NCBI GenBank assembly: GCA_000310025.1
Contig: FN649741.1
Coordinates: 5,685,775-5,749,774, forward strand
DNA length: 64,000 nt
Source of the DNA: Ectocarpus siliculosus
Taxonomy: Eukaryota > Sar > Phaeophyceae > Ectocarpales > Ectocarpaceae
Reading direction: 5' to 3'
The notes under the pieces are model-generated. The model was not told where the DNA came from and ran no database searches. It was given only the letters and a program-made list of their open reading frames with translations. A program made the translations under genes and the position numbers. This document shows, one piece after another, positions 1 to 43,200 of this stretch (positions are counted from its first letter, which is position 1; the number at the start of each line of letters is the position of its first letter).

Positions 1-122
1 ATCCCCCGTTGCGCGGAGAGAGGGTTCTCGACCCCGCACAACATGATCTACTCGACCACCATTATTACGGTTACCGCCAAAAAAAAAAATGAGGTAAAAA
101 AAAAAAAACGGTAACCTGGTTG

Positions 123-345
123 CCGAGTTCACGAAGTGAATTGGCTTGTTTTACGACGTCGTTGCCAAGCGACGAAAACCCAATCCCGATGGCAAACACC
201 GAGTGGGGGGCTTGTTTTACAACGTCGTTGCCAAGCGACGAAAACCCAAACCCCGATGGCAAACACCGGGGGGGGCGGCTTGTTTTACAACGTCGTTGCC
301 AAGCGACGAAAACCCAACCCCGATGGCAAACACCGGGGGGGGAGC
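123..345. repeat. Three-copy tandem repeat, 66-68 bp unit
   Basis: Three units begin at about 145, 211 and 279 with the same core (cttgttttac, then cgtcgttgccaagcgacg, then aaaaccca, then gatggcaaacacc), separated by variable G runs. Each core holds a short inverted repeat, CGTCG...CGACG, and the array is entered by TCACGAAGTGA, itself a perfect small palindrome. A fourth, single copy with the same entry sequence lies at about 13375-13450 inside intron 6 of the B55 gene, so this is a dispersed family. The unit has no spacer/repeat organisation of a CRISPR and the genome is eukaryotic. Confidence 0.85.
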
Positions 346-654
346 TGGCGGGGGGGGGAAAAGCCACGTAGGGGGGGACAGGAACAGAACTGGCCGAAGT
401 GGGTGCTCGACGACCTGAAGGCATTCGGGGCCGACCACGGATCTACGAAAACCGATCCATGTTGTCTCGGAATCCCGGTAGCGAAAGACACGGCACCGAA
501 GTTAAGGTGGACGGAAGCCGCGAAGGTGGAGGGGGGAGTACCCTGGCATGTGGCGGTGCTGCAGGGAGCTGAGAGGTTCATGACCTCCTGACACGAGAAG
601 GAAGAAGAGGCCAGCCAACAATCCAAGGGCACAGGCACTAGAGACCAAAGTTCG
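346..654 (+). pseudogene. Degenerate transposon-like reading frame
   Basis: A reading frame open from the tandem repeats runs to a TGA at about 589-591 (…GGVPWHVAVLQGAERFMTS, stop) and continues in the same frame after it with an acidic tail (HEKEEEASQQSK) to a second TGA near 655. The continuation crosses the left edge of the inverted repeat at 615. It looks like the decayed end of a mobile-element protein, with one Trp codon perhaps changed to TGA. That is inference: I cannot name a family, and no terminal repeats, polymerase or integrase motif is visible. Confidence 0.25.
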
Positions 655-1778
655 TGAGTGCCTACGGCCTTCAAATCAATCGCGGCGGTGGGAAGTTGTG
701 GTGCTGTGCTTGGATCGTTCGAAAGTGTGGCCGATGCAGCAGCATTCAAGCTGTGCTGCTTGCAGCTCACAGAACTCGATAAAGAGGGATCGTTTCGAAG
801 TAGATAATGGATTCTGTAGTTTACTGCTTTACTCTGTGGGATGAAGTCCCTTGGATCCTCTACGGTAGACACTGCATTGTTACACGCGACCGCTTGTTAC
901 CAAGTCTATGCAATGGGACAATCGTACTGAGGATTTGAGGATGGATTTGGCAAACAAACAAGTACCGGTAGGCGTTATGCTCGATTTCTCGGATGAGATT
1001 TGCCTCGTTTGCAGCCCCCCCCTTCGAACAATCGTGGAACTTTCCGTTGAAGCCCCACCACACCCACAAACCGCGCGACATGTTTCCCAGCTCTCTCTCA
1101 TGAGTCACGCGTGAAATACGGGGATTGGGACCCACCCTGGCTGTGGAAAGTTGGAAAGGAGGGGTAGGGGACAAGTGGGGAACATATCTTCCTCGAAGGG
1201 ACACACGATGGCCACGGTGCTCGTCCCCAACAACTAACTCCCACGGTTTCCCCTACACACCGCTCCTGCAGATGGCGGAACAAACCTTTGATAAGAAGAG
1301 GCGGTTGGATGAGGACGGAAACGCCTCGGCGTTCGCCGAAAACACGGCAGAAAGTCGCAAGGAGAAGCTGGAGACCTGGCTCAAGCCCCTTGACAACGAG
1401 CAGCTGGTCAAGCTCCTCCTTGATATGTACGTCATGTTCTGCGCCAGTTGTGTCCTTGTGTGTGCATGTGTGTGATGTGTTGTTTTTCGTTCCATTTTTT
1501 TGGGGTGGCAGCCTCGCTTGGGTTCCTTGATCGTATCATATGCCCATGCTCATTTAGATTGGCATATGTGGACGGGAACTTCAATCTCTACTGCTTGTTA
1601 TTGTTATTGCCCACATTATGTCGTCTCTGTCGTCTCGTCCATGATGTCTGTTTTGAACGTGTCTACGTCTTTCGGTCCATCCTTTTGTAGCAGATACTGA
1701 GTTGTGTTTCTATTTGTTTCTATTTGTGTTTGCCGCGGCCCGTTTGGTGTGACCTCTTTCCTGTTTCTTTTGCTCTCT
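615..1778 (+). repeat. Left arm of a 1,164-bp inverted repeat (orphan promoter + exon 1)
   Basis: This arm is the reverse complement of 7004-8167: position x pairs with 8782-x throughout, so there are no indels. I count only four mismatches (654, 993, 1618, 1665). The arm carries a copy of the RRM gene's upstream region (615-1271), its start codon and first exon (1272-1426), and 352 bp of intron 1. It then stops abruptly at 1778, in the middle of the intron. No RRM exons follow, so the copied exon 1 is an orphan facing right. Confidence 0.95.
1272..1426 (+). pseudogene. Orphan copy of RRM-protein exon 1
   Basis: It begins [20 protein letters not shown] and encodes the same 51 residues as exon 1 of the RRM gene at 7510-7356, with the same GTACGT donor. 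The copy has no downstream RRM exon. Joining the donor to the nearest acceptor-like site (after 1782) meets a TGA at once. Unless it splices to something unseen it can only give a short peptide. Its duplicated promoter could still drive rightward transcription antisense to the parent gene (inference). Confidence 0.85.
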
Positions 1779-3426
1779 TCAGGTGACATGAACAAATTGG
1801 ACCAGGCCATTTTTTTCGCGCATCCAATTTGATAGGGCAATCTTTATGTCAAATTAAGATATTAATCCAAGCGCACACAAATCTTGGGGGACCTTGCCGA
1901 AGAATTTCAAACAATATTATAGGTAGATCTATGGGCCGTGTTCGGTCGATATATGACCTCGTAGTGGGCCCGGTCGTCGTGGTGGTCCAGTGGTAACCTC
2001 GAAACGGCTAGTCGCAAAGTCGTGAGTTCGAATCCCTCCCATGTTATCAATAAATTACAAATTACAAATATGCGGGTGAAAGCGAAAAAGATGGGTCTCG
2101 TGAGTTCCAAACTTTGACGTAAGCACCGTTCACGAGGGAAAAGGACAGCTGGACCCTTCTCGCGATACAAAATACAATTCAGTCCGAAATAAAAACAAAG
2201 AGAAGAAAGCCCGGTGTTCACCCAACTTTACTGTGTGATTCTGGATGGTCGTAGTTGTATGAAAAATGCACTGAATATATGTGTGGTGCACGTCTCACCA
2301 CGAAAAATTGAGGGACTGTCGCCGTAACAAATAGGACGAAAACACTCAGTGGCCATCCGTGACGATCCAAATTGGCCCATAGTTGGGTGCTGAGAGCCGC
2401 GGATCCGGCTTGAAGCAGCGGCACGGCCTTTCCCAGGTTCAGAGTGAAACCAGGGCGAATCACATGTTTGTCTGCGCGTGTAGAACACAACATACTTAAG
2501 GTATCCCGCAGGTTTCATGGCACGTAGCCATCTGTGTGAGGAGCACCAGCGGTGGCTAAAGGTGTGCACATCTGCACCAAATGGTTAAACAGGGCAGCAC
2601 ATCATGGGGTCCTACTAGATTATCGCGGAGCCCCTCGGTCATATTTTTTTGCTTAATTGTGTGATGTGCAACCCGGGGGGGTGAGGAAGTGTTTTGTCCA
2701 ACCAAGGCCGTGACCTACAAAGGGTGAATGCAAAGTCCTCACCCTAGACGGGAGCATGCAAAACAATTTTTTCGCACTCATCTCTAAATCCAGAATAGGA
2801 ATCGGTTGCTTGTGATCTTTACGCACAAAACCTGTGATTCCTCCAAACCATTGCAAGACCCCCGAGTCATCACTCGACTTTGGTGTGACATTATGTGTGC
2901 TAGGCGTCGATACGTGTACTGCTCTGCACTAGAAGCCATTTGATGGGATGGTTTCGTTTTCACCCACAGAATGATCCGAGACACAGATTCTCTTTACATC
3001 GATATTAGTACAGCTCTCTGTTCCTCTACAACACCCGTTATATGTCCAATTACATACGTGGCTTGCAACTGTAGCCAAATACATGTGTAAGCGGTATAGG
3101 AACATCTCTGCGGCAGGCTCCAAATGTTGGTTATACCTCTCCGTTACATGAATCATGCGATCAAAACGGCCGCCGAGCCAAACCCTGTCCTAACGCAAAC
3201 TCACAATACCATAGGTCCTCTTCTGTCGTCGTGTCCTCTGTGTCGTTTATCCTCTGACTGAGTGCCTTGAGCTTAGAGACCTATGAAGACGGTAGAAACT
3301 CTGAAACCATATCCCTCCATTAAAACCACAACGTCTGTTGTCCACACTACTTCCTACCAATTGAAGCAAAAAATCTGACAAGGAACCATGGGCTCCCTCG
3401 GACAGCTTGCACATCGAAAGGGAGGA
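1779..3426. other. Intergenic stretch with a tRNA-like sequence
   Basis: This lies between the orphan exon-1 copy and the stop codon of the RRM gene. Apart from the tRNA-like sequence near 1966-2040, I see no open frame with convincing codon use, no splice-linked exons and no known domain. It includes the 3' flank of the RRM gene. Confidence 0.5.
1966..2062 (+). repeat. tRNA-related sequence, probable SINE head
   Basis: A tggtccagtgg segment resembles a pol III A box. About 30 bases downstream, gagttcgaatccc matches the B box (GGTTCGANTCC). It is followed by an AT-rich tail with the repeat aaattacaaattacaaat. When I tried to fold it as a tRNA, the T stem had mismatches and the acceptor stem did not close, so a functional tRNA is unlikely. 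A tRNA-derived short interspersed element is the best reading; no second copy is obvious in this window. Confidence 0.45.
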
Positions 3427-6400
3427 TCAGTATCCCTGCTGTCCGCCCCATGCACCCGCTCCTCCGGCAGCCTGGGTAGCCTGGCCTTGGTATGCACCAC
3501 CACCGTTGGTGCCGTACGCAGCAGCGCCTCCTGCATACGCACCGTTGCCATACGCTTGCTGCACTCCCTGTACCAACGGAAGCGGATACCAACATCGTCA
3601 AATGTCAACAGTCCGCCTGTATTAAGCAACTAAGCGGGGTGGAGCGTGCAACTATCAGCAGTATACCATACCAGTCTTCGTTTGGCGCCATGGTATGGGT
3701 CAACAGCTGGCATTGGGACAAGTGATGAACGAACGTACCTGAGGTGCGCCGAACTGCTGCTGCTGCCCCCACTGTCCCTGACCGCCGAAGCCTTGGGCTT
3801 GACCATCACCGCCACCAACACCCCACTGACCAGAGCCTTGACCTGTGAAAATGGCATAGGCGTAAAAATTGTATTGTTGTGTGGTCAAGCTTGTAACACA
3901 AGACGGGCTTAGAAGTCTGACTTTGTACACTATTTCGAAAGGTGAATAACTATGTCACGTCTGCAGGAACACACGACACCGCGTACCTTGAGCAGGGTAC
4001 TGCTGCTGCTGACCCATCATGCCCCAGTGCTGACCGGCCTGAGGTCCACCGTAGTTCTGGTTCTTCCTGTTCGAAGCTCCCTCAGCTGCGATGTTGCAGT
4101 GGGTCAGGCGACCCTGCAACCCCAGCAAAGCAGCGAGGAGAGGCAGCGATAATAACTAAACCGTCGGTCCTGTCGAAAAAAACTCAAGAGAACACAGTAA
4201 GCCTGTTTGACGCCAGCGCGCAAGACAGGCGATAGCTGAACGAAAGGCGAAATAGATGTGACCGTTGTGATTCACATTAGCCAACTAAATATACTGCTCC
4301 CCAACGCATTGTTGTTGCCCTATGACTTGATCCCTGGCGTGCGTCATTCCGGACTCACATCAAGCTGCTTTTCCGGCTCAGCAACGGCAGCAGCAGCGTT
4401 GGCGGCAAAGCGGAAGGTAACAAAGCCGTATCCCTTGGACTTGCCCGACGCGCGGTCAGTTGTCACCACACAATCCTCCAGTTCGCCGAATTGAGAGAAC
4501 ATCGTGCGCAGTGACTCTGTCGTAGTGTCCCTGTTCACCGAGACAGAAAAACGTGTTTGAGAACGATTTCGGAAAGGGCGTGCTATATGCAGAGATACCA
4601 ACGTAGCGATTCTTCCGCACCACAATATTATAATTTACAAGTGACATACCCACCACGAGAGCCCTCTGACGAAGATCTTCCTGGCACTGACGTCCTCTCC
4701 TGAGCCACCCACGGCGCCACCCATCATGCCACCCGCTCCACCCTGCATAGCGCCGCCCTGCATGCCACCACCAGCCCTTGCAGGCAGCGGTTGAGAGGAG
4801 CGGAGGGCCGCCAAGTTGCACAAGCTCACCCGCCCCTGCAACGAGAGCATGCGATGCCAAGCGGAGAAACGAGAAACGCCCGATAAGATCAAACAGCTTC
4901 GGCTCAATCACGCAGTTGCTTGGACGCGCGATATAGGCTGCAGCAGTACTCGAATCAAGGAAACAAAGCGGCTTTGCGTCTAGCCCAATGACACCACCAT
5001 GAATCGCGCGTCCTAAAATAACGGGGTCAAGAAGCAATACACGCGAGTGGGGAGAGAAACCGGTCGACTCAAGCATGTGGACGTGTCAACAACCGGTCGA
5101 CTCCAGTTCCTCACGTCGATCATCTTCTCAGGATTTTCCAGAGCGGCATGAGCGCCGTCCATGCTCTTGAAGGTGACAAAGCCGTAACCCTTCGATTTCT
5201 GTGTCATCTTGTCCATCACCACGGTGGCCTAGCGCGCAAGTCACCGAGCAGGCGGAAAAAGTACGAGTCCGTGTCAACCAGTTATCCAAAGGAACGAGCA
5301 TCACCTTTAGTCTTTTGACACTACCCGTAGTGACAAAACAACGAATACAACCAGTCGAGAGCCGCATTTTGTGATGCAACAATCACAACGAGAGGAAGCG
5401 CCAGCGTCGTTCAGGTGGGCCGAAACGAAGACAGGAAGTGCCTTGCGATGAACGACAGAGGAGCTGCTATTTCAAATTCTTAGACTCTGATCCTGGGCGA
5501 ATGCGAAAAAATCGCAAGATTGGGGAGAGGACCGATAGTCGCTGACGATCAGGGGGGAAAAAAAAAAGCCCTGGGGGGAGCCGACTCGCACAATGCATAG
5601 ATGCATGCTATTGATACCACGTTTCTCATGCAGCGGGGCCTACCTCGGCGATCTCTCCGTATTGCTCGAAGACTGCACGAAGGGACTGGTCGTTGGTTTC
5701 CCATGGTAGACCGCGAACGAAAATTTTCTTGTTCACCTAAAAACGAGCAGCGCGTGCAGCGGGGTAATAAGCCTTAGATGCTCCAGCAAGTACAGTGTGA
5801 TGTATGAATAGGTGCCTAAAGCTGGAGCGCCGCGACAACCTCACGTGTGCACTGCACCCATCAGGTTCGAGCGGTGGCTTGCGTGACGGTCGCATGGAAC
5901 AAAATTGCAAGAAAAGGTGAGTTTTCGATCTGCATGGTCACTGTATTTGTCTTTCAGCCTCCAAATATTTGGGAGCGTCCCTACACTGAAATAGGGGTGG
6001 GCTTTATGAGTGCTGCAACATACGGTACGGCTTGAAGTTCCCCTACAACAGTTCCAGTGCCGACATGACAGCAGTCGTGGAAAATCTCATTGAGGAATGG
6101 GACCATTTCGTTCCGGCATCAACTACAAGAGAATGAGGAAACCAAGTCAGAATCGAATATCCCGCCAGCAAAGCGAAAAAAAATCCGCAAAATCAAACAG
6201 ATTTCCTCTGCCACGTGGGAGTCTAGAAAAACCAAGACAAACCCAAACCGCGGATAGAAGCACAGGTCGTCAAATAGGAGTGGTTGGCTTTCGCACAACT
6301 CATAAACAATGTGATAGGCCGGTAAACGCAACGTGGACTACTCAAGCGAGCCTGTGCACACTTCTATTCATTTGCTCGTATGCATACCGAAAATCATTAC

Positions 6401-7510
6401 TATCCGCGAAAAAGTCAACATTGCATCCACTGCATCATGTGGTACTGAAAACCAGTCCACCATGTGAAAAGCATCGACAGCAGTAGTGCGACCGTTCACG
6501 TACAGTGACGAAAACAATGCGAGGACCCCCATGGATAAATAAGCTGGCGACGCACAACCGCCAACATGGACTCATGTCACACTGATGTGAATTGGAGGTG
6601 GGGATGTAAGATGCGTGAGAACCAGATCATCAACAGAGGGTAGTGGACATCCCATGTTTCAAGCAAATGTCACGACTGCCGTTCAAAAGCAAACGCTACC
6701 GCACTACCTACAGCTGTCATCAACCGTGCTTATCCACTCGCAACGTAATCATACCGGAATATCATCGCAGGCCCGGTGGATCTCGTCGAATGCACCAGGG
6801 TTCACAGACCCACTGAAGATTGCAGAAGAAGATGCCCAGCCAAAATGGCCCCAAAACCACACAAAATGGCACCCGCACACGAATATTGTATGCAACAAGC
6901 CGGTTGCAACGAAGCCATATGCGCACGGATTGGAAGGAAGAAACGCCATGAACCCAGGGCACGCCAGACGTCCAGGGCACGCCAGACATCAGAACCATGT
7001 AAGAGAGAGCAAAAGAAACAGGAAAGAGGTCACACCAAACGGGCCGCGGCAAACACAAATAGAAACAAATAGAAACACAACTCAGTATCTGCTACAAAAG
7101 GATGGACCGAAAGACGCAGACACGTTCAAAACAGACATCATGGACGAGACGACAGAGACGACACAATGTGGGCAATAACAATAACAAGCAGTAGAGATTG
7201 AAGTTCCCGTCCACATATGCCAATCTAAATGAGCATGGGCATATGATACGATCAAGGAACCCAAGCGAGGCTGCCACCCCAAAAAAATGGAACGAAAAAC
7301 AACACATCACACACATGCACACACAAGGACACAACTGGCGCAGAACATGACGTACATATCAAGGAGGAGCTTGACCAGCTGCTCGTTGTCAAGGGGCTTG
7401 AGCCAGGTCTCCAGCTTCTCCTTGCGACTTTCTGCCGTGTTTTCGGCGAACGCCGAGGCGTTTCCGTCCTCATCCAACCGCCTCTTCTTATCAAAGGTTT
7501 GTTCCGCCAT
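3427..7510 (-). CDS. Two-RRM RNA-binding protein, UBA2/hnRNP A/B type
   Basis: Nine exons read 7510-7356, 6812-6755, 5736-5644, 5228-5115, 4835-4654, 4530-4359, 4113-3987, 3842-3739 and 3567-3427; every join keeps frame and gives 381 residues. A helical N-terminal segment (about 1-70, with [16 protein letters not shown]) precedes two RNA recognition motifs. RRM1 (about 73-150) shows RNP2 KIFVRGL and RNP1 [11 protein letters not shown]2 (about 190-270) repeats both. The tail from about 270 is rich in Gly, Gln, Tyr and Ala (ends GAWGGQQGY), as in hnRNPs. The N-terminal segment plus tandem RRMs is most like plant UBP1-associated protein 2, which binds U-rich RNA in the nucleus; the exact subfamily is inferred. 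The promoter and first exon lie inside the right inverted-repeat arm. Confidence 0.92.
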
Positions 7511-8167
7511 CTGCAGGAGCGGTGTGTAGGGGAAACCGTGGGAGTTAGTTGTTGGGGACGAGCACCGTGGCCATCGTGTGTCCCTTCGAGGAAGATATGT
7601 TCCCCACTTGTCCCCTACCCCTCCTTTCCAACTTTCCACAGCCAGGGTGGGTCCCAATCCCCGTATTTCACGCGTGACTCATGAGAGAGAGCTGGGAAAC
7701 ATGTCGCGCGGTTTGTGGGTGTGGTGGGGCTTCAACGGAAAGTTCCACGATTGTTCGAAGGGGGGGGCTGCAAACGAGGCAAATCTCACCCGAGAAATCG
7801 AGCATAACGCCTACCGGTACTTGTTTGTTTGCCAAATCCATCCTCAAATCCTCAGTACGATTGTCCCATTGCATAGACTTGGTAACAAGCGGTCGCGTGT
7901 AACAATGCAGTGTCTACCGTAGAGGATCCAAGGGACTTCATCCCACAGAGTAAAGCAGTAAACTACAGAATCCATTATCTACTTCGAAACGATCCCTCTT
8001 TATCGAGTTCTGTGAGCTGCAAGCAGCACAGCTTGAATGCTGCTGCATCGGCCACACTTTCGAACGATCCAAGCACAGCACCACAACTTCCCACCGCCGC
8101 GATTGATTTGAAGGCCGTAGGCACTCATGAACTTTGGTCTCTAGTGCCTGTGCCCTTGGATTGTTGG
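7004..8167 (-). repeat. Right arm of the 1,164-bp inverted repeat
   Basis: This arm holds the functional 5' end of the RRM gene: 657 bp upstream of the start codon (7511-8167), exon 1 (7356-7510) and 352 bp of intron 1. It matches 615-1778 in reverse complement with about four differences. The outer edges share ccaacaatccaaggg; the inner edges break inside a CT-rich intron stretch (tgctctct). Confidence 0.95.
7511..8167 (-). promoter_or_regulatory. Probable promoter and 5' UTR region of the RRM gene
   Basis: This is the 657 bp directly upstream of the start codon and wholly inside the inverted repeat, so an identical region faces right at 615-1271. I see no convincing TATA box. Open frames here match between the two arms only because the DNA is duplicated, and they have no recognisable product. 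The promoter role is inferred from position. Confidence 0.45.
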
Positions 8168-9086
8168 GAAAAAAATTGCCTGAAAGCAGGATCCTTGGAA
8201 AATACTGCGACTTCGTACTGACAACACTGCCGTAGATAACATCTCGACCAAGGAAGGATCCTTCCAATCTTTTCAACAACGCCAACGGCGAATCTGTAGT
8301 TCTTTCAAGTATGTCATAGACAAAGGAAACTGCAGCTGACAAACTACAAGTTCTGCTTTGAACGGGAGAAAATTGCACTTCGAATGGAAAATCAGCGTTC
8401 AAGTTGTCTCTCGATTCCGATCCGTGCCTGGGCGGAAAGCGCTATTTCGTGCGTACACAGAGGGAAGAGAGTGCTGTATTCTTGTCGCTTCTCGCATTAA
8501 AAATCGAAGGAAAAGGACCGCAGGAGGGGTGGGTATGGGGTCTCAGGGAGAGGAACCGTTCTGTGAGGCCACGGGTTGGAGAAAACGGCACAACAACAAC
8601 GCTGAGCCCTGATATTCAAGTCAAGACAAAAAAAATGGAAGCGCGGTATGCAAAGTGCAGTAAGTGCTGCTACCCTCGAAATCTCCAGAGAGGTACTACA
8701 GCAGTTGTACAGCGCCAACAATAACAACATGGCCAGGTACACGAGGAAAAAGGGTGAGCTATCAACAAGTGATGAGGGTGTGGCTAGGTGCGGCCGGATA
8801 CGGCCGGCAACGTGAACGATAAGTCACTGCAGCAGTACTGCTGTAGTGTACACGTAAAATCTACCGCGCAGCAGCTGGGCGTTTTCACGCCCTGCTGCGA
8901 CTGATCAGACGGGACTTCGGCAAAACACATCTGGAAATAAATATCCGGCCGCATTACTCCTAGAATCACAAGTGATGGACGAGGAAGGAGAGAGGCAGCG
9001 CGCGAATGGGTACCGGCGAGGAGATCGGCGTCGGGACGGAGGGCAGATAGCCAACGGGGTTGCATCACAATTCCTCTGCCACAGCA

Positions 9087-13300: not shown

Positions 13301-15825
13301 AGCACACCGGGTTCTCATTGGACCAGGCTCTCACATCACCAAGCGCTTAAGAAAAAAGGGGGGAACCCGGATGTCGAGCTCACGAAGCGACCGGCTTGTT
13401 TTACCACGTCGTTGCCAAGCGACGAAAACCCAGCCCCGATGGCACACACCGGGAGGAGGGGATTTCGCGTGCGACGGGGGGGGGCATTCTGTAAGAGAGT
13501 GGATTGCTTGGGGATGTTGAAGCCGCCGTGGTCATGGTGGTTGTGAAGGCAGGGTCCTACGAAAAAATGTGACTCTACCACTATGTAATCGCCTTTCTCT
13601 CTTTTTTCGTAAAAGGCTCAAAGCCTTGGTGTCTCAACGATTGACCACAGGCCTTGCGATGCTGTCATCTAACGAACGATTTGGTGTGGTGCCGGCGGCG
13701 CCTGAGTCCAGTCACATTTAAAAATATCTTCGAAATACGTAGCACCAAGGGTGCATCAAAAACTCTGCACACACATATTTACCGGTCTTATTCCTACGCA
13801 AGGCATAGTGGCCCCGCGGGCAATTCCGTTGTCGTTTCTGTAACGTATGCGCGAGTAATCCTCTCGGATTCCCACGACAGTCATGGATCACGCGAGACCC
13901 GAACGGAGCACACCAAGACAGCACCTGACCCGCTCAAAACGTACGCGTGAAACGTCCTCACTTCCGTAGTACCACATGATGTGTTCCCATGTGCGGCTTG
14001 CGTGAAGTGGGCTCTAAACACCAAGCAAGACACGCAAATCGTCCAGACGTTTTTTTCGGCCCTCCGGGGGAGGGGAGGTACACTAATACATGTGTGTACG
14101 CGGGATGTACGTCACACAAGGGAAAGACTACCCATTCGAGATACTGTAACTACCCGCCGGTCGAGCATGTGTTGACGTCTTTAAGTTAAGGGGGACCCGA
14201 TCCCTAAGGTATCCGTCGATTGACTTTTACCATACATAATCGGTACACCTTCACGTTTTCCACAGTTATATTGGTAATCTATGGTATATTTATTGGGCTG
14301 TTTGATTTATTTGATTGTTTTCGTATTATTGCGTTTTGGGTTTCGGGCAGGACGTATCGGAGAAAAACGGACAGGAGCCAGAAAACTTTTATCCTTTCGA
14401 AATTCTGCCACATCAATATACATGTACGGAAGTCTTAGAGTAAGACAGGCCCAACGCAATCCGAGTGTTGTTGGTAGTTCACTCGCACGACCGCTCCTCC
14501 TACAGCAGTAGTACGATTGACAACCCTGCCGCAGACATAAAATGTTGCTCACAATCGAAACACCTACTAAAATGTTTCTCTCTGCTCGCAGCTTTGCAAT
14601 CTATACGAATCCGATTGCATATTCGACAAGTTCGAGTGTGCCGTGAGTGGAGACGCGAGCAACGTGCTCACGGGCTCGTACAGCAACATGTGTCATATGT
14701 ATGACCGATATGGGCAGGCGATGGCATCGATCGAGGTGAGACGATTACTCCATGTGGGTATCCAGGTGCTTGCTGTAGCTTCTTCCTCAGGGCCACAAGA
14801 AGGGAAAAATATTGTTACATAGACTACTGCTGTATTTGGTTGGACAAAATTGAAGAAAAAGGCGATATGCGCTTTGTGATCGTTATCTTCCGAGCGGATG
14901 CCGGGGACTGTTTCGCTTGAGTGTCAAGTTTTCGAGGAAAGAGGCTTCCACAGCTGTGCTCTTTGGACAATCTTGGAGGAAAATTTCCTCCAAGATGTCT
15001 TGTGAGTTGCACGTAGGCACGCATTTTGTAGCCAACAAGACGTCGTGCTTGAGAAACTGAGGCTGGCTCAAGTTTTTCACGGAAAATAAGAAAATAGGTC
15101 AGTTGGGTCAAGAACCGCAGCTAGGCGATGCAAGATTTTGACGTTTAGTTTCTCCGGGCCCGTCTCTGTACAAGGGTCGCAGAATATGGTGCCCCTTTTC
15201 AAGACCTCACCACGTGTGCCAGCTCGGTCAACGAGACCCCCTTCTTCGTGAATTTGAGACACGTTCATGGGGTGGAACGACTCTCGTAAAATCATAACGC
15301 TGAAAAAGAACTGAAACATCCAAAGTGCATGAATATTTGTTCTGTAGAGCACAGCTTGGGAGGTTCTCTCTACAGCAACGCACCTGCCCATTGGTGAGGC
15401 CCAACTGGAAAAACATTCAAACCGCGTTTGTATGCTATGTACCATGTACTCCAAATTGTGGCCCACAGTGTACTTCGAAGTAAGAAACACTGACCCATCG
15501 GTGACATGCCAAAAAACGCCTAGTGTGTCCGTAACCAGAACCTCGTTTCACTTCTAGCAACTGCGTTTTATATGAGCTATTCGAGGCACAACTGACAACC
15601 AGGGCGACTTCGTATTTGTCACGCCATGCCCATGCGTCTCACGAACAGGTTTGTAAAGACCCGTCCAAAAAGGCCGGCGGCAAGAAAGCGAAGCGACGAT
15701 TGGCGCGGAATCCTGTTGGAGAGATAGATTACGACAAGAAGATCCTTCACATGTCCTGGCATCCCAAGGAAGACATTATCGCTGTTGCTGGCCACGACAA
15801 ACTGTACATATACACAGCGCAGTGA
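10346..15825 (+). CDS. PPP2R2: Protein phosphatase 2A regulatory subunit B (B55/PR55)
   Basis: Eight exons: 10346-10424, 11018-11124, 11506-11677, 11877-12164, 12426-12590, 12828-13021, 14592-14735 and 15649-15825. Phases agree at every join and give 441 residues, the usual B55 length of about 440-450. The seven-bladed WD40 protein selects substrates for the PP2A A/C core. Seen directly are [20 protein letters not shown] at the start of blade 1, [35 protein letters not shown] with [12 protein letters not shown], and the final blade ending [11 protein letters not shown]. Exon 8 has a Lys/Arg-rich insert ([16 protein letters not shown]) in the loop before the last blade. Intron 6 (13022-14591) carries a copy of the 66-68 bp dispersed repeat. 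The gene ends 192 bp from the TAP42-type gene, whose product also acts on PP2A. Confidence 0.96.
13375..13450 (+). repeat. Single copy of the 66-68 bp dispersed repeat, in B55 intron 6
   Basis: It starts cgagctcacgaagcga and continues with cttgttttac, cgtcgttgccaagcgacg and aaaaccca, matching the three tandem units near position 145-340 with a few substitutions. It is followed by a short G-rich stretch, as at the other site. Confidence 0.85.
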
Positions 15826-19000: not shown

Positions 19001-22000
19001 GTCAGACCAGCTTGTACCATATGTATGAAACAGAATCGGAGACACAGAGATATGGCAAACGACAGAAAGCAGAACACGGTATACCGAGAGGCTCAGGTGA
19101 AATCAAACGGTACGCAGAGACTTCACTCAGGAATTGACCCCGAGGCCCCACGCTGATTGGCCAAGACCACCCGGTACCGTTTTTTCAGAGACTGCAGCGG
19201 GGAATACCGATACCAGGCTTCCCCAGTCGGCTTTCACCGTTTTCTATCGTCCTGGTCACCCTTGTCGCAAAAAACAACTCCTTCACAAAGAACACTCGGC
19301 CTGATAGGACTTCGGACCTCTCGACTAACCGATCATGTGCGGAATGACATCAACCATCACTGCAGATCCAACTCCAATATCCGAGCACCAACAACAACAC
19401 CTCAATTCGCCGAGTCTCATGACTCTCGAGCTTTTCAACCTCTTCGGTGGGGCCGCCACGCGTGCGCGTGCAACACACAATAAAACTATGTGCCAAGAGT
19501 CCCTCGTCTGCAACATCAAAACTCTCCGAATTGGCACAACCACACAACCACACCTCAGACCTCCGTGAATCGACAAGCAGACAAGTCACGCAGGAAGTAG
19601 GATGGTGGATGGCCCATGGGGGACTGGTGATCCAAGCATGTATCTAGTGCGCTCGCTTCTGCAATGGTGACTGCTGTGGTAGTAGTGTTGTCCCTGAGCA
19701 TTTAGGCATCGCAAGCTGTTGAGGTAGGACTAACCGATGGTTGAGATGCCTTTTGAGCCATCATCTTGTCATGTTTCAGCCCAACTCGTTTCAGGTTAGT
19801 GCACAACTAGTTCGCAACACGGCAGGGTAAGACACAACATAAGCGCGTGGTGGTCGGGCCCAACCAGTAGGTACGAGGTAATGTCGTCGTTACCGACGAC
19901 ATACACACACGCAGCAGAGAAAAAAAATGTTGTTGGAAATGAGTTGACCAAATAAATAGTAAGAGTTGATCTTGGAGACACGGGGAAATCAATCCGATCT
20001 CAGAACATGTATGTGTATGTGGCGCGCGCGGCGGCGGCACAGAAAAGGTTGAAAAGGTCGAGAGTCAAGAGGCCCCGGTGAGTTGAGGTGTTGTTGTTGG
20101 TGCTCGGACCTTGGAGTTGGATCTGCTGTGATGGTTGTTGTCATTCCGCACATGAACGGTAAGTTGAGAGGTCCGCAGTCGCATCACGAGTGCTCTTTGA
20201 GGAGTTATGATTGTGTCAACAAACGCTGACCAGGGCAATAGAAAACGGTGAAAGCCGACTCGAAAAGCCTGGTATCCGTATTCCCCGCTGCAGTCTCTGA
20301 AAAAGCGGTACTGGGTGGTGTGTCACCTTCCCGGGAAGTATTTTTTGTCGTTTGCCTCATACAAGAATATCACTCCCTGTGGGCTGATGACCACCGCAAA
20401 CTTGAATGGTAGCAGTTGACAGGACCGTGTGTCCACTATTTAATGAGAAGGCAACTAACACTGAATATCGTGTCCCAAGAAACACGTCTTGACTATCCGT
20501 CTGAGAAAGAGATGCAATGCGGCGACGCACTCGCATGGAGGCGTGGTTCCTGGGTACTGAGCGTGGGCCTCGCGGTTTATCTTCAGATTGTACAGAAATG
20601 AACGTCACCATCAACGTATTGTCTCCAACATCCCGTAGGAAGTGAAAATCCCACCTCTAAACCGTTGCTACGAATGGAATCGTCCTCGTCTCGACGTGCG
20701 CGCGCATGTTGCCCATCAGGCCCCGCCCCTTCCTGTTCCCTGGCTTTCACGAGGTGCTTCAGCATTTCCGTTTCCTTCCAGCGAGTTGCAGAGTTAGAGG
20801 AAGACAATGTGCATTAGGCAAACTTGCCGCTCCGGCAGACAGGTGGAGCACAGACATCGATCACAAATCTGATGCTTGGTAGACCCGTTGCACACAAAGA
20901 ACGCAAGAGCCACAACAACCCTACGTCGACAACAGCTATCGACACAGCCTCACTCGAGCCTTCGTTTCTCGTGAGTACAGGTTGCAAGAAGGGACAAAGA
21001 CTTAATTACCTTGCTCATACCGGACACCCCGTCTAGAGCCTCAGAAGCTAGACCAGCCAATAGCAGGAGCGACCTTTCTCGCTTCATGCCGTCACCTTCG
21101 CCCTCGTCTTCGCAGTCCTGGGGTTTGAGAGACAGACAGAGCAACATTCAGTGCTTATTCCGGGTTCAACTAATGTACTCCTTGTTCGTTTCGCCACTCT
21201 GACCTATAACAGTGATACCGAGCCTCCAACAGCACAACAGCAACAATCCGCAGGAGAGTGTACTTTACCTTGCCCTCCGTACGTAGAAGTTCTTCAATCT
21301 CTTTCATCTTCTGCTGGGTTCTCTGTTGTCTCCTGCGAACACCAATCCAGCAGAGCGCGGGAACGTCAACCCAAACATTTCCAATATCCACCACGGTTGT
21401 TCAGACTCCGTCATGCGCTACGACCGGCTTGTGCTGCATCTACTGCTGTTGTGCGGGTGGTGCACATGCCAGTTAATCCGGACTACGCGTGTTAGCCATC
21501 TGGGTCTCATGTCCCACGTGCTCGGTGGGGGTCAAGAGAGGGGGTTGCACCCCGCCACCTGCAGAAACGTTCAAGAAGACCACAAAAATATAACCTTGTC
21601 GTTCACCTGAACCTCTCTATTTTCTGCTCTCGCGTGATTGCTTGCCGGTCGCCAGACGTTGAACGTTCTGCTTCCTTGAGCATGGCCTGCCACGCCTGAA
21701 GGTCAGCTGCGTCGAACAATTGCAGGCGCTCGCAGGTATCGAGATACTTGAACAGGAGAGCTTCCGCTTGTTCCAACACCTTGAGGCGAATCTGCGCGGC
21801 ACAACACGGTGTGTGTCCATATGTTACCGATACGTGTGTCCATTCATCGGTCACACTTTAGGTGGCGCTTGATCCAGCCGCTCTGAGGGCGGTCAAGGTG
21901 AGAGGCTAATATAGTAAAACAGCACAACTGCGCCACGTTGTGCAGAATCGTTTCCGGGGTTGTTGACAACAAGACAAATTGAGGTGTTTCGGGATGCGGA

Positions 22001-25000
22001 TGAAAACATATGCCCATCAATGTAGCCACCGTGAACATGAGCGCACCAACCATCGACGTGGTGCAAATTTCGAAAGCACTACATCGGTCTCTGTATTGAC
22101 CAGGCATTGCAGTTGGGTTTCGGTTTAACTCTGGCACGATTTGGGCGCTCTCATTGATGATGCAACATTCATAGTGCGGCCGCTTGTCTGATACTTGCAC
22201 CAAATTACCCCCCAATCTGTGAAACCCGATCTCAGCTTGGCGATTGCGGAAGAACACGTCTATATGTATTTTCTCCATTTCAACCATCGGGCATGTGTAA
22301 CAGGTTGATGAGCTGGTCTCACTCACTTGCGGGTTTGTGAAGGGTAACTTGATCATCAACGAGCCCAAATAAAAGTCTGTCGCCAACAGCGGCAAAACCG
22401 GCGTCGCAATCTCTCCCACTTCTTCGTTTGCAGAAAATACCTTCAGGAACAACAGGAGGAGCAAAGGGTCGACGCGAGCACAGGAATGACAGTGGGGCTC
22501 CAAAATGTCCCGACCACACAGACGAAGAGACAAGAGAGCGCGTGAAACGTACAGCAGCAACGCATGCCCCCAAACGGATGACATTCTGAGAGGAGAGGGG
22601 GAGGGACAGATGGGGGATCTACTCTACTTACGGGTTTCGTAACGCGAAATCCGCGAATGGGGTTTGCTTGGGTGTACGATACTCAATCCCTACATTACCG
22701 GTGTTCTCTGGGTCAAAATGTGCCAATCCTGAAACCTCGCAGTACAAAAAGCAGTGGGGGTGCACACCAACCATAGCCCAAGTTCGCTTCAGTCTAACTT
22801 CATGATGAGAGCATCCTCAGGGCAAGTTCCAGCAGAATAAGCGACTTCACGGGATGCGACATGATGAAGCTCTCCTGTATTTAGATGTCAAGTCAGGCCG
22901 CACTTTTGGTATGCCCGGGGGGGTTGAAACTCCAACCTGAGGACACCAATGCGTTCTCCACGACTACAGTGGATCACTTAAGCGGCAGACAAACAGGCAG
23001 ACGGAAATAGATATCATTTAGCTCGTCCCCAATATCTCAATCGCAAAGCCTGTGAGGTTGCTGCCAAGACGTACTGCCAAGACGTATGATCCTGTAAGGA
23101 TACGAACGGGTTCACCACGTTAGGGCCGCGAGGGCTCTCCATCCAAACAAACCGGCGTCCCACAACACTACTCGAAATAGAAACGCTCGCCCCCAGGGAA
23201 AGCACGAAAAGAGAGCTACTACACACCCATCCTCACTACCCACCATACGGGGCTCCCAAGACCAGATATCCGACACCACAGGTGTTGCTCCCTATAGAAA
23301 CACCGCCAAGTATGCTTGTTGTGTGGATAAAGCAAACATGGAATCGCTACACGAGAGATTTGTGCCGCGACAAACTCTCGGTTATTCTGCCCCATCTCTC
23401 AACCATCGGGGCGATCACCAGAACTCTATCTAAACCCAATCTGCAGTCGCCAAGCTATTCACCCTCTGACTGTTGGCGTGCTTTCAATTCAACAAAACTC
23501 TTCAGGATTATTGCAGGTAGGCTTAGGCTCACTACTGGAGGCGTTTGCGCACCGCGCCGCAGGCCATCTGCCAAATACCGGAGGTGAGATTTCATGTACA
23601 TCTATTTGGCTGACTGCTGCAAGCTCGTTCCGATCGCCGTACTGCTGATCCCTATCCTACCAACGATTTTCTCCTTCTATGGGCCTTTATCTCGAGCATG
23701 GTGGAGTTGAGCTGCGTTGGGGCACTCTATCGATGTGAAACGTTGGCGCGGAAGTTGTCTCCTGAGAGCTGAACAAATCGGGTGCAACAGCGGCAACGGC
23801 TTCAATTCACATGTGGGGGCGCAGCATTTCTCCCGATCAAAAAAACAAATTCATCGGATATCAGCAGCTTCCAGATGGAGGGCACTGTCATGCTTGCTCG
23901 AGGAGCCCCCTCTACGTTCATCGCAGTCAATGCCAGTGGGAGGAGCACGAGGTCATGGCCCAACTGGGCTCAACTGGGTCAAACCTGGGGATGGGCCTAT
24001 CCTGCGGATGCGCTGAACAAAATTCCCGATGAAACTATACATACTGCTGTCGGCGTGAACTATTGGCCTGTATGTCTTTGCATCTTGGGATGAGGAGGAA
24101 CACTTGTGACACAGAGAGACAAGCACCAACGCCTTCATTGCCGATAGCCATATCCGTGGATACGCCACGCAGTGATCTCGCAGAGTAAATGGTCGGCCGA
24201 TGGCACTGGCTTGGCTTCCAGTGTCATCACAATTTGCCGTTCCTATCCAATAACACCACGCTGTCCCATGCGACAGTTTGATTTCGCTGATATGCTGCAG
24301 GCGCGTGTCGTAGGCGCTTTGCAATCGCACACGCCTGACAATCAGTAGTAGCCCAATACCACAACACAGCACGCTGTGCTTGATTTTCAGCTCTCGCGGA
24401 CTTGTGGTGTATAAACGAGAAAATTCGGGTATTGCTTGGAGGTGATGCACCGCCCTAGCGGGCGGAAACGGTAGTTTGGATGTTTACCACCGCACGTTCG
24501 TTCTACAGTAGTACGGTCGAAGTTTTGACGCAGAAATAGTACCGCCGTTCGGCATCAACATCTCAGGCTTCAGGCACCCACTCGGGAAACAAGTTACTCT
24601 CAAGGGACGTGATACGTTCTTTGCGAATAATTGCGTGACGCCAGTTGGATTCAAACACCGCACTCAAAGGGGAGAAATATGTACGAATCTCTACATGCAA
24701 AACTCCACTGGTTCCGCCACAAAGCTACAGAAGAATGGAGAAACGATAATTTTGTGAGTGCTGTTACATACATGCACTTAAGTATTATAGAGGTCTTGAC
24801 GGTCGACGAGGGAAAGGGACGGCTGAGGGTCGGTCTTAACGAAGAAATCAGATCTCGAAATCACATTCACATTTGTTTATAAGACCGGAAGATCCACAGA
24901 ACTCTTTCGTTGATTGGCTGAAATGTTATGGAACCCGTCGAATCTTCTTATAACAGGACGACCCAAAACCAAATCGGGATTAGAAAAAAGGTGAAATCAT

Positions 25001-31545: not shown

Positions 31546-34500
31546 TTAGTGTGCGATAGTCGCCGCGCCATACGCAACCACAACGTCCGGATCAATATCA
31601 ACGTTTAACCTGTCCACACCAAGGTGCGACTCCAGCAAACTCCGCACTCGTGGTGTTCGTGTCATCCCTCCTACCATGACAACTTCATCAATCTCGTCTA
31701 CTGTTAAATCCAAGTGATGAAGCAGACGATCTACCGGGGCTACACCGCGATCAAACAACGAAGCGCAAGATTGCTCATATTCTGTCCTGGTGAGTTCTAA
31801 ACTAAGCGAATTCCACATCTTGCAACGTTCTCCTTCAGCCCCCGCGAATCTATGCGCGTCTTGACTGTCCCCATCCTCGCTGGGCGTTCCTTTCTTTGGA
31901 GACCGCAAGTTTCGTCGCTGGGCTTCCTCGGGAGGGATCATGCACTCCACTGCGGCGGTCTCCCCGTCCGTCAGCAGACGTCGCAATCCTTCGCTGAGCG
32001 GGTAAAGGTTATGAAGTGCGCATGTCGGCGTAGTAAAGCCGCACGAAACCGCATCCTCGGCCTCCTCCAGCGCAACAATGCTCCGGTCAAGCTTGCGCTC
32101 CAGCAAATGGGCCACGCATTGATCGAAGTCAGATCCTGATCGTGACCGATCCAAATTGGAACCAGGGCGTCGTAGGACGAGCGGCGCATAATGGGAGGGT
32201 ATAACACCGTAAATGTAAACAAAATGAAGAAACACCAATGACGGATTCATGTCAACGAGCGCTTAAATGACGTGCGGTGAGAGCAAAGGTAGGAGGCCTA
32301 ACCAAGGAACTGTTATGCTGCCGACAAACACAAAGAGAAAATCTACAGTAGACGGGCCCGCAGTAGCTCTGGACACAAGTCGACCACCCTGTTGCCGACG
32401 AACATACATACAAGCTTTGCGACAAAACAATCTGGAAAACGCCAAAGCCTTACCGGCCCGCAGTAGCTCTGGACACAAGTCGACCACCCTGTTGCCGACG
32501 AACATACATACAAGCTTTGCGACAAAACAATCTGGAAAACGCCAAAGCCTTACCGGCCCGCAGTAGCTCTGGACACAAGTCGACCACCCTGTTGCCGACG
32601 AACATACATACAAGCTTTGCGACAAACAATCTGGAAAACGCCAAAGCCTTACCCCCGAGGTTGTCGTCTCCATCGCTGCCGAGGACCTCCACAGAACCGT
32701 CGTTTACAAACAGAAGCGAGACGTCTAGCGTGCCACCACCCAAGTCGTACACGAGGATGTGGTTCACATTCGGCTTGCGATGGAGGCCAAACGCCAGCGC
32801 TGCCGCTGTTGGCTCTTCGAGCATTCGGATGACCTGCTCAAGACAGGCGAGGTCGACCATTATACTCGGGTAAGGTAGCCAGGTTCAAACACTGTTCACG
32901 GACGGCGGAGTTGGGCATCCAAATTTGAAAACGTGGTCAGATGCGTGCATTGTACCAGTATGATTCTCGCACTTTGTCTAGTTTGTTCGTGAAAGCACGC
33001 GACGGTCAACAAACCTGAAGGCCCGCTAGGCGAAACGCCTCCACTGTGGCCGCCTTCTGTCTTGCATCGAACTTCGCTGGGACAGCAATAACCGCTTTGC
33101 TCACTTGCGAGTGGCCTAAATAGACTGCGGCCCTTTGGAGTAGCTCACCAAGTACATGGGACCCTACCATCTGCGGAGACACAGAAGGAGGATGCCCGGA
33201 GCGCCTGCAAATGCAACGGTCAAGAGGGAAATTCACGCGCCAGAAAAGATAAACTTCGAGGGCCAGATGTCATCAGGACTCCGTTCAGCTTCTCAGAATT
33301 CCTGTGAAAAACTGTATAGGCCAGGCATTCAACATTATCAATTTTTCAAAAGAAATTCCTACAAGAACTGATAACGGCGACCAGCAGCGGGAGAGCGGAC
33401 TCCCGAAGCGCGATCAAGAGTAGCAGGTACCTTGGCAGTGGAACTATACGGTCACATACGGAGTACAAGTAGTCCCAAGTTGATAATAACCTCCCGCAGC
33501 GCCCAGCCACGCAGACTGTGGGACACAACCAATCACAAATCCTTCCTCACTTGATTTTGAACCACGCTTCGGAAAGATCCTCTTTCGTCTGTACCAGCTG
33601 GAACTGGTGCTCTGCTGCCTCCTCAGAGACGGCGCTATCAGAGAATCTGCGGCGAATGCAGATCATGGTATAACAAACAGGGATGTGGAGGCGAGCGAGC
33701 GCTTGGCAACAGGGTTTGGGGTAAGGTCGGACCAATACATGTGTACAAAAATTAAACTCCAACCGACGTGTTGTACCACAATAAAAGCAGATGCTCCGCG
33801 CGTCGATACAGTACACGACCAACATTCGTTAACTCACTCTCGCCCAATAAATCTTTTCGCGCCGTAGATGGTGTTCGCCGGTTGGCTCTCGAGAAGCTTT
33901 GTTGCATCTTGGCCGACAGCTACACGCCCGTTATCCAAAAATGACACCACCGATGGGAGGAGGGGGCTTCCTTCTGCTCCAGGAATGATGGCGATTTTCC
34001 CACCCTGCGAAAAATGAGACGGCCGCACAAACATGTCCTGGGGAATCAAAAGGCCACGCTGCGTTCCCCTGGAATGACGATGACTCGGATGGTTTCCCCG
34101 GAGGGCGTCCAGAGATGAGAATTTCACTGCTCAGGCAAATCTGCAGAGGAAGCAGAGCACCTGCGTAATGCTTGTTCAATTCAACAAAGCACAACCCGCA
34201 CTGGGAGTGCGAGATGGATGGTAGTGGAGGCTCGTTATATGCTCTCCAATGAGGTTCAGACAGCACCACGTGTCCGGAACACAATTTTCACTTTCGTGCG
34301 GAGAGATTTGAGACAAATGCATGGCGCTTCAAAATGTACGCTGCCTGTAGGCGTGCGGCAAGGGTCGCTTTCGCTAAGCTCACTGTCGAACGTCGAGTGA
34401 GTAATGACAGATGGGTCGCAAGCTATAGTGCTTGTGCTAGTGTTGTTGCACAGCGAGGCCCGACTCAGCAACAAGGTCTGCTGGTCTGATACCATACAGC

Positions 34501-40281: not shown

Positions 40282-43200
40282 CTACGTCATGGTGCCTTTC
40301 CCACACAAGAATATCGTTGTTCGTCGCTCCTGTGGAGCCGCTTCCAGCACGATCTCGCCAGCCGCTGTGCTGACCAGTCTTGTTCGTCCCTTAACAACCC
40401 GCACCCCCAACACAGACAAGCCGGCCGCCGCTACACTCTGAGTCACATACTTTCTACGATGACTCCACCTTCCGGTGAACTTCAAGTCAAACGCCCGCAC
40501 ATTCCCGCCAGCATTTGCTCCGCCCGACCCATCGTCAATAGCGTCTAACGCATCCGCGTTGAACGCAACCAGCCCGCCTGGCCTCGTGACGGCCGCGATG
40601 GCCCGGAACAAGTCGCCTAGGTCGCCGAAGTACGGCACCATGTCGGCCGCCACTACGAGGTCGAAACTGTTCGGCAGCATCGTGTTCACAACAGCGATGG
40701 CGTCTCCATGCTGGATGCTATCATATGACCCTTCTCGTAACGCGTGCTTGATGGCTCTCTCCGAGAGGTCGACTCCTGTGATGAAATTGGCGAGTTGTTT
40801 CAATTCGCTCCCCATCGTACCTCGCCCGCACCCGAGGTCAAGGATGTCCAACCACTGCAGCCCCCTCCTACCCAATCCGTCTGTCGGCAAGCCGAGAGCG
40901 GCCTCAATCATCGATCTCATGTTGGGTGCCACGCGATCGAATATGAGCCCGTGCACGTCATAAAACATGCCACGATCGCCGTTTGATCTTCTTGCCTCCG
41001 CCAGAGGCCCTGGAGACTCTGAAGAGTCGGAATCTTCCGCACTTGCAAGAGCGGTCCTCTTTGCCTGTGACTCCAAGAACCCGTTCTTTCTAACTTCCAG
41101 GTCGAACAGATCGGCAACATAGGCCGTGGGGGCCCGAGAGGGTCGCAACGATTTGCTGTGCAACGCCGCGGTGAGGTAGTCCATCTCTGCCGCCTTTGTG
41201 GGCGACGATCGTGCCTGAAATGTGTCAAGTAGTAACGTTCATCAGTCAGGGGCATCCTCTGGAAGACGAAGTCCAAATCTGGCTACATGTCGGGTGGTGG
41301 CGAACGGGTGCAAGGAGCATGTTGTGCCGGGCAATTCATTGCCTTTGCGTTTATGACCCAGAGCCGCTGGAACAACTTAGAAGCGTCGCGTAACGTTCGA
41401 ATTTCGAATTTTACACCCACGTACTAGCAGTAAACGCGCCGCAACCTGCTCGAAGGGTTGGTTATAACTACCGAGCGCTCATTACCCTCGGTCCTCACCT
41501 TTTTGTAGGTCGCTAGAGCTTGCGAGAAGTCACACAGCTCGTGGTACGCGTAGCCGAGTTGCACCAACGTCCCGATATCCCTGAGATCAAATCAAGACAA
41601 AGAAGGAACATGAGTCAACTTGTATAACGTGCGTCGCGTTCACTACGATACACAGAAATCGGGGAGCCGAACTGAAGAGAAGTAGAGCCAGAAATGTGGC
41701 GTAATCCCCGAGACGCCAAGGCATTCGCAAGGACAAAGGTATTGCCATGGGACCAACCCGCTCCACCGAAGAGCGTCTACAACGGAAGCTCGAGGTGGAA
41801 GCTACTGGTACACGACTTCAGCTGCAACTTGCTCACAATGCATTGCTTCGCTCCCGGTTTCCACGCAAAGTATCACGCAAGTATCACACCACTCACGTTG
41901 ATCGCTGGGCGATGATACTCTTGTACTGTCGTATTGCCTCTTCTACGGATCCCATATCTCGGAGGGTGTTGGCCAACAACTCCTGGGCTTGAGTCAAGTC
42001 CGGAACCAAAGCTGGCGAATTGAAGAAACAAACAGCATCGCACGCCATAAACCGGAGTTCGCGTTAATTCGCAACATATTTGCACCGGCGGCCAGCCATG
42101 TACAGTTGTCATCACGACAGTATCCCAGTTGTACGCAAACCGCGAGTTTGAAGAGGTATGCGTTGGCACAAGTTTCACGTCAATCATCACTCTACGGGAA
42201 TACCAGGGAGGTTACCTTCTGTGTGTAAAGGCACACAAAGATGAAGACGAAAACGTCCCTCCTACTCGTAGTGGTGGAAAGAAATTGGATCAGCACTGCA
42301 GCTGTACAAAGCAGCCGATATCCACACACCCCCCGTCTCATTGAGACCTATTAATATAATATGTCGACATCCTTTGGCAGGGTGCCGTGCGAACGACACG
42401 GCTCGGATACCTTCCTTGCCGTCATATTTCAATCAAGCGTGAGGTTCGTGGTTACATTATTAGTCAGGTTCGCCCACCGTGCTTTGCACGTGAAATACCG
42501 TTTGGCTTGTAAATGGGTCATTGAAATAGATCACCCTGACGATCGTGCTGCGTAGATGGATCCATGATTTTCAACAGGATGTTCCTTTCTCCGGACCTCT
42601 TCGGTACTAAAGGGCGAAGAATCTTCGTAACGAAGAGTCCGGTGGCAGAAAACTGATTCGTCCACGGCGCTGCAGCTGTGCCCTCTTGCGGCATACATTC
42701 ATGAGCTCTTCCCCTTGATGTGGCTCTAGGAGTGTATAAAGTACATCCGCCGCTTATCGTCATCAGCGCTTGCATGTTGCAGATCTTCGCACGATACATT
42801 TGCGGTGAAAGTGCACATGACCTTGTACACAAAAGGAAAACACTCCTGCGGGGGTGCGAGGCTCTATTGTTTTCGGAAAAAACACGACAACGAGAAACCT
42901 TGCGCACGTACACAACTGGGGCCTACCATTCACACCCACCTTCAAATGGATACCCAAACCAGAGCGCGAAGCAGTTGTCACTTCGACAGAAACAAGCTCC
43001 CCAAAATAGTTGAAATCGTGGACTACTGCTGTTCGTAGCACATTGTATGGCTAAGCTCGTCTAACACTCACCGGTGGCCAACTCGAGGTGCCCCACAGCT
43101 TCCGAGTGGTTGTGACTGTCAAGCAAGCTCATTGCCACCTGTGTGCACATGATCATCAGGCCGGCAGGAAAGAGTGTGTGACAAGTGCATATGTACATGT

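Follow-up and report, generated by a model that had tools for sequence, protein, structure and literature searches.

A two-RRM gene and its native 5′ region

The DNA analysed here is a single stretch of 64,000 nt (C16:5685775-5749774; referred to as the window), and sequence comparisons were extended to the genome, of which 189,456,909 bases in 492 contigs were searched. Toward the left end of the window, an hnRNP A/B-like gene encoding 381 aa lies on the minus strand at 3427..7510. By using GT-AG sites together with the reading frame, we built an exon model with nine predicted coding exons on the minus strand (7510-7356, 6812-6755, 5736-5644, 5228-5115, 4835-4654, 4530-4359, 4113-3987, 3842-3739, and 3567-3427, the last including the stop codon). 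The predicted product has two RRMs and a Gly/Gln-rich tail; two RRM_1 domains were identified in it by Pfam, and its best PDB match was hnRNP A2/B1 (E=4.7e-29). Two RRMs and a Gly-rich tail are also the features of hnRNP A/B-type two-RRM proteins, a likeness that holds at the domain level only. When the genome was searched with the protein (E up to 1e-5), 41 candidates yielded 15 matches. In eight of these the search recovered the RRM gene's own exons, all but one of the nine, and in another the copy of exon 1 in the left arm described below; the remaining six lay elsewhere at 24-40% identity. A close second copy of the RRM gene was not found in this search.

The native 5′ region of the gene constitutes the right arm of an inverted repeat (7004..8167, minus strand). 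As determined by the repeat search, base-by-base comparison, and the splice model, this arm is contiguous with exons 2-9. It extends from 657 nt ahead of the ATG, through coding exon 1 (7510-7356), to a point 352 nt into intron 1. The first-pass annotation of this DNA had described the right arm as exon 1 plus part of intron 1 of the RRM gene, and the splice model bears this out. Directly before the ATG is a CAG (7511-7513); a 5′-UTR intron is thus possible, and for this reason we only infer that the working promoter of the gene is situated inside the arm. A promoter and terminator scan of 7000-8200 yielded no match, but it is designed for bacteria and says nothing about an alga. Read by eye, a short reading frame upstream of the ATG starts at 7574. 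On the native right side, 8168-8400 was free of scored matches, and a dispersed repeat starts at about 8401-8404 (best 40 of 1,348 candidates).

An inverted copy of the gene start and its breakpoints

The left arm (615..1778, plus strand) is an inverted, right-facing copy of the same 5′ region, running from the DNA ahead of the ATG through coding exon 1 to 352 nt into intron 1. Within it lies an orphan coding exon 1 (1272..1426, plus strand) that is identical to 7510-7356 and is followed by its splice donor. The repeat search of the window placed the two arms at 615-1778 and 7004-8167, each 1,164 nt long and spaced 5,225 nt apart. When the arms were compared base by base, 4 mismatches and 0 indels were found, corresponding to an identity of 99.66%; homopolymers were also kept without indels between the copies. 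The mismatches (654/8128, 993/7789, 1618/7164, and 1665/7117) are all A/G transitions, and all four are located outside coding exon 1. Given that the exon occupies only 155 of the 1,164 nt, the probability that none of the four would fall in it by chance is about 0.56, and their absence is not a sign of selection. This comparison confirmed the initial description of inverted copies over 1,164 bp with about four mismatches and no indels. The geometry proposed for the left arm, namely a 5′ gene fragment that lies inverted beyond the 3′ end of its own gene and lacks adjacent downstream exons, was likewise correct.

The likeness of the arms did not arise by chance. The first 12 kb of the window and its own reverse complement had 2,130 exact 20-mers in common; among 20 mononucleotide shuffles, 19 had none and one had 3. 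When the genome was searched with the arm, 3 matches were obtained from 3 candidates, namely both complete copies and a short match of 47 nt at 87% identity. The latter joins part of the upstream region of the arm (754-799; 46-47 nt) to C78:199223-199269 (E 4.6e-6). To gauge how common such structures are, 20 stretches of 10 kb were sampled in addition to the window, at coordinates that were picked by hand and did not come from a random generator. Of these stretches, three consisted entirely of N and another five contained some, so that N made up 46 of the 200 kb; with the window included, 217.9 kb of non-N sequence remained. This background contained 5 other inverted pairs of at least 150 nt (217-511 nt, 79.6-93.7% identity) and none of at least 500 nt at 95% identity or more, within the limit that 10-kb stretches cannot reveal pairs spaced wider. 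The inverted duplicate is a true and locally unusual feature of the sequence.

The near identity of the arms had been taken in the first-pass annotation to mean either a recent event or gene conversion, with which four differences in 1,164 nt are compatible. The mutation rate reported for Ectocarpus, in the available part of the source, is 4.07e-10 per site per generation (CI 4.93e-11 to 1.47e-9; PMC10254074). If no conversion took place and if this rate applies, four differences in 1,164 nt would correspond to about 4.2 million generations, with a range of 1.2-35 million (PMC10254074). A duplication that is recent as judged by identity may thus still be old in generations.

The outer end of the left arm abuts repetitive DNA. 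The window opens with a high-copy repeat (1..358, plus strand) that contains three units of about 66 bp at 143-346, adjoins a run of N on its left, and overlaps the start of the next repeat; its end was placed at about 358, where most of the best matches end (best 40 of 2,271 candidates). A fragment of the repeat of 98-346 is also present at 13349-13461, with 82% identity over 114 nt; compared with single units, the identity rises to as much as 95% over 62 nt. The next repeat (339..616, plus strand) is part of a high-copy dispersed repeat, the copies of which are 96-98% alike (best 40 of 250 candidates), and it is cut off where the left arm starts. Beyond the position that corresponds to 614, eight fetched copies of this repeat continue as CCGACAACGAGCGC, whereas here the sequence changes into the arm as CCAACAATCC. 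No Pfam domain was detected in six open frames from two of the eight fetched copies, which together have 12 frames of at least 120 aa. The outer breakpoint therefore lies at 614..617, where CC at 615-616 is common to the repeat and the donor sequence; the exact overlap is 2 bp, with a looser likeness of 6 of 7 bases around the CC.

The inner breakpoint lies at 1778..1779. The sequence that follows, 1779-1969, matched only itself in the genome search; with no relative of this flank to compare, microhomology could be judged at the outer junction only. Two dispersed repeats occupy the interval between the left arm and the 3′ end of the gene, one at 1970..2348 (plus strand; 68-80% identity in the longer matches) and the other at 2380..2680 (plus strand; 71-78%), in both cases among the best 40 of 430 candidates. 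Because only the best candidates were scored, the copy numbers of all these repeats are lower bounds. Read by eye, the repeat at 1970-2348 begins in a tRNA-like manner at 1980-2045, with a box-B-like GAGTTCGAATCC, and it may be a tRNA-derived SINE; ARAGORN called no tRNA genes within the window. By eye, the arm ends showed neither a long target-site duplication nor terminal inverted repeats; the one candidate for a target duplication is a CAG present at both 612-614 and 1780-1782.

The inner breakpoint also forms an acceptor-like site (1758..1782, plus strand; TTCCTGTTTCTTTTGCTCTCTTCAG), composed of the pyrimidine tract of the arm and TCAG from the flank. The pyrimidine fraction of this site is 0.91 over 22 nt, compared with 0.59-0.73 for the gene's own eight acceptors, and only 0.18% of the 1,714 YAG sites on the plus strand of the window score as high. 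If an orphan transcript were spliced at this site, its frame would encode 52 aa and end directly after the exon; if unspliced, it would encode 67 aa, extending 15 codons beyond the exon. Neither frame makes an RRM. Polyadenylation-like words are present on the plus strand between the arm and the gene (AATAAA at 2049 and 2188, ATTAAA at 3319, and TGTAA at 3086), although these may not be brown-algal signals. A structured RNA in the arm was rejected, as the fold of 1240-1782 gave a z of 0.47 against shuffles and 63 of 100 shuffles folded at least as well; no Rfam family reached the gathering threshold within the window.

Origin of the inverted copy

These features are best explained, with a probability of roughly two in three, by a local inverted segmental duplication that arose from DNA-break repair and has no established function. 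According to this model, a break would have occurred in or beside a dispersed repeat downstream of the RRM gene and would have been patched, in inverted orientation, with 1,164 bp copied from the 5′ end of the gene itself at a distance of 5.2 kb. The repair could have proceeded by template switching or by end joining of a copied fragment, and it would have left behind an orphan gene start, from which a short RNA carrying a truncated frame may be made. Two high-identity copies in opposite orientation are present on one chromosome and are not dispersed elsewhere. Since the genome search returned only two full copies, the arm is not a dispersed element, and a dispersed transposable element is thereby ruled out. 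The arm also holds upstream DNA and unspliced intron 1 sequence, which excludes a processed retrocopy. The truncation of the repeat, the overlap of 2 bp, and an inverted copy taken from a source close by all fit break repair; by itself, the overlap at the outer junction is weak evidence. As expected of random breaks, the copied segment begins far upstream and stops in the middle of an intron.

Inverted templated duplications at breaks have been described in the available parts of two reports (PMC11724301, PMC8421209). The locus resembles MMBIR/FoSTeS-type templated insertions in that it combines short shared sequence at the outer junction, a nearby inverted source, and a truncated target. It differs in that the copied segment is 1,164 bp long, whereas the yeast inverted insertions in the available part of PMC11724301 are mostly about 5-34 bp, and in that microhomology was judged at one junction. 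Several points count against parts of the break-repair explanation. The identity of 99.66% could equally reflect active conversion or selection and not youth; the strong acceptor-like site at the inner junction could be used; and the left side adjoins a run of N, so that the flank may be incomplete or misjoined. Were the inverted copy only a repair scar, it would be a clean example of an inverted gene-start copy arising beside its source, a structure that has been proposed as raw material for new small-RNA genes. Among titles on inverted duplications, inverted repeats, and small RNAs, we met no report on this particular locus, which is not to claim that none is in print.

The position of the left arm near an N run and among repeats raised the question of whether it, or its junctions, could have been misjoined at a contig end during assembly, with the four differences representing alleles or errors. 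A run of at least 4,792 N ends exactly before the first base of the window (C16:5685774 and lower), the left 614 bases consist of high-copy repeats, N accounts for 46 of the 200 kb sampled, and a difference of 0.34% could be heterozygosity. However, N runs need not be assembly gaps, and a wholly spurious arm would require both junctions to be false. The two arms are separated by 5.2 kb, differ in their flanks at either end, and carry four differences, unlike fold-back read artefacts, and their homopolymers show no indels between copies. We therefore regard an assembly artefact as unlikely. Capture of the gene fragment by a transposable element, followed by insertion beside the source gene, is less probable by far, to the point of being barely credible. 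A dispersed repeat does abut the outer end of the arm, but this repeat is cut by the arm and not carried along with it; the inner flank, 1779-1969, contains no known repeat and matched nothing but itself. Neither terminal repeats nor a long target duplication were seen at the arm ends, and the genome search returned no third full copy of the arm. Gene capture was rejected on these grounds, as neither element ends bounding the arm nor several genomic copies were found.

Possible effects on the RRM gene and further features of the window

Two further readings would give the arms an effect on the gene. In the one, an RNA reading through both arms would form a hairpin from which Dicer and Argonaute would produce small RNAs against the RRM gene, resulting in a self-silencing loop. 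Apart from the near identity of the arms, this reading is favored by a Piwi-domain locus in the genome (six matches at C2:6872705-6877263) and by two RNase III domain matches (E 3.7e-7 and 6.5e-4). As reported in the available part of PMC12477816, Ectocarpus has 21-nt small RNAs and one AGO, and its CDS-mapped small RNAs shorter than 24 nt map to the sense and antisense strands in about equal measure. Negligible 5mC in Ectocarpus is also reported (PMC12477816); silencing would thus have to work without methylation, and methylation-based silencing of the kind seen at plant inverted repeats would be unlikely here if this genome is Ectocarpus-like. The geometry imposes further demands. Because exon 1 would be read in the same sense from either arm, RNAs begun in the two would not pair over it. 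A hairpin needs one RNA containing both arms, and its stem is limited to whatever portion of the first arm follows the start site. Such a transcript would have to cross about 5 kb of gene body or run beyond the 3′ end of the gene, and one begun in the left arm would have to traverse about 1.65 kb, including two dispersed repeats, before reaching the gene's stop codon. The double-stranded RNA of 1.2 kb initially proposed to result from read-through would hence attain 1.16 kb only if transcription entered from outside the arm; with a start inside the arm near the ATG, the stem would shrink to about 0.5 kb. Moreover, the anatomy and identity of the arms are equally expected of a neutral duplication. 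An autoregulatory hairpin at the RRM gene is accordingly kept as a candidate reading, but a highly improbable one.

In the other reading, homologous recombination between the arms would flip the 5.2-kb body of the gene, leaving the gene intact either way, while conversion would keep the arms alike. Because both arms hold exon 1 and the start of intron 1, recombination would join the left exon 1 to exons 2-9. When the inversion was performed in silico, an identical coding sequence was recovered on the plus strand at 5 of 5 crossover points in the arms, and none of the four mismatches touches coding exon 1. A 24-kb flip/flop region of yeast with 4-kb inverted repeats behaves in this way, as described in the available part of PMC9731477. 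Nevertheless, this assembly contains only one orientation and no sign of past inversion, and any inverted repeat spanning an upstream region, exon 1, and intron 1 would have the same property by construction. We consider an invertible gene improbable. Inversion would trade only the distal upstream surroundings for the downstream ones. That the RNA-binding protein might thereby have two heritable expression states, as its gene body flips between the native right flank and the repeat-rich left flank, with the protein unchanged and the arms kept alike by conversion, is more doubtful still. The flip/flop region of Saccharomyces chromosome XIV (PMC9731477, available part) is comparable in that nearly identical inverted repeats flank a segment for which inversion is predicted; here, by comparison, the arms are the 5′ end of a gene, the spacer is the rest of the same gene, and one orientation is seen. 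If evidence of inversion were found, the locus would be a natural self-inverting host gene in brown algae.

If RNA evidence for the hairpin were found instead, the locus would represent a natural self-targeting host gene in brown algae. Well-known inverted-repeat silencing loci of plants are Arabidopsis PAI1-PAI4, Antirrhinum nivea-525, rice Lgc1, and maize Mu killer, at which small RNAs, methylation, or trans-inhibition have been demonstrated. As at the locus described here, part of a gene is duplicated in inverted orientation at these plant loci, in some cases together with its promoter and first exon. They differ in having those small RNAs, methylation, or trans-inhibition, whereas the present locus is described at the level of DNA sequence.

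The EsV-1-7 repeat family (PF19114), which is abundant in brown algae, had at least 150 matches in this genome, all above the cut-off (best 150 of 880 candidates), and the DNA is probably that of a brown alga. In 14 control genomes, which appear to be prokaryotes (those named are bacteria and an archaeon), no match to PF19114 was found; such controls cannot tell brown algae apart from other eukaryotes. Elsewhere in the window, a second and more diverged inverted repeat is formed by 19166-19465 and 20022-20319 (304 nt at 84.5%), and a tandem repeat with a unit of about 100 bp occupies 32352-32653, its copies being 98-99% alike. Five of 11 long open frames were scanned for domains. The frame at 21847-22623 gave a weak TAP42-like match (PF04177; E 2.1e-6, 27.6 bits versus a cut-off of 26) and is perhaps one exon, and the frame at 40285-41238 contains a methyltransferase domain (PF08241; E 3.6e-14).
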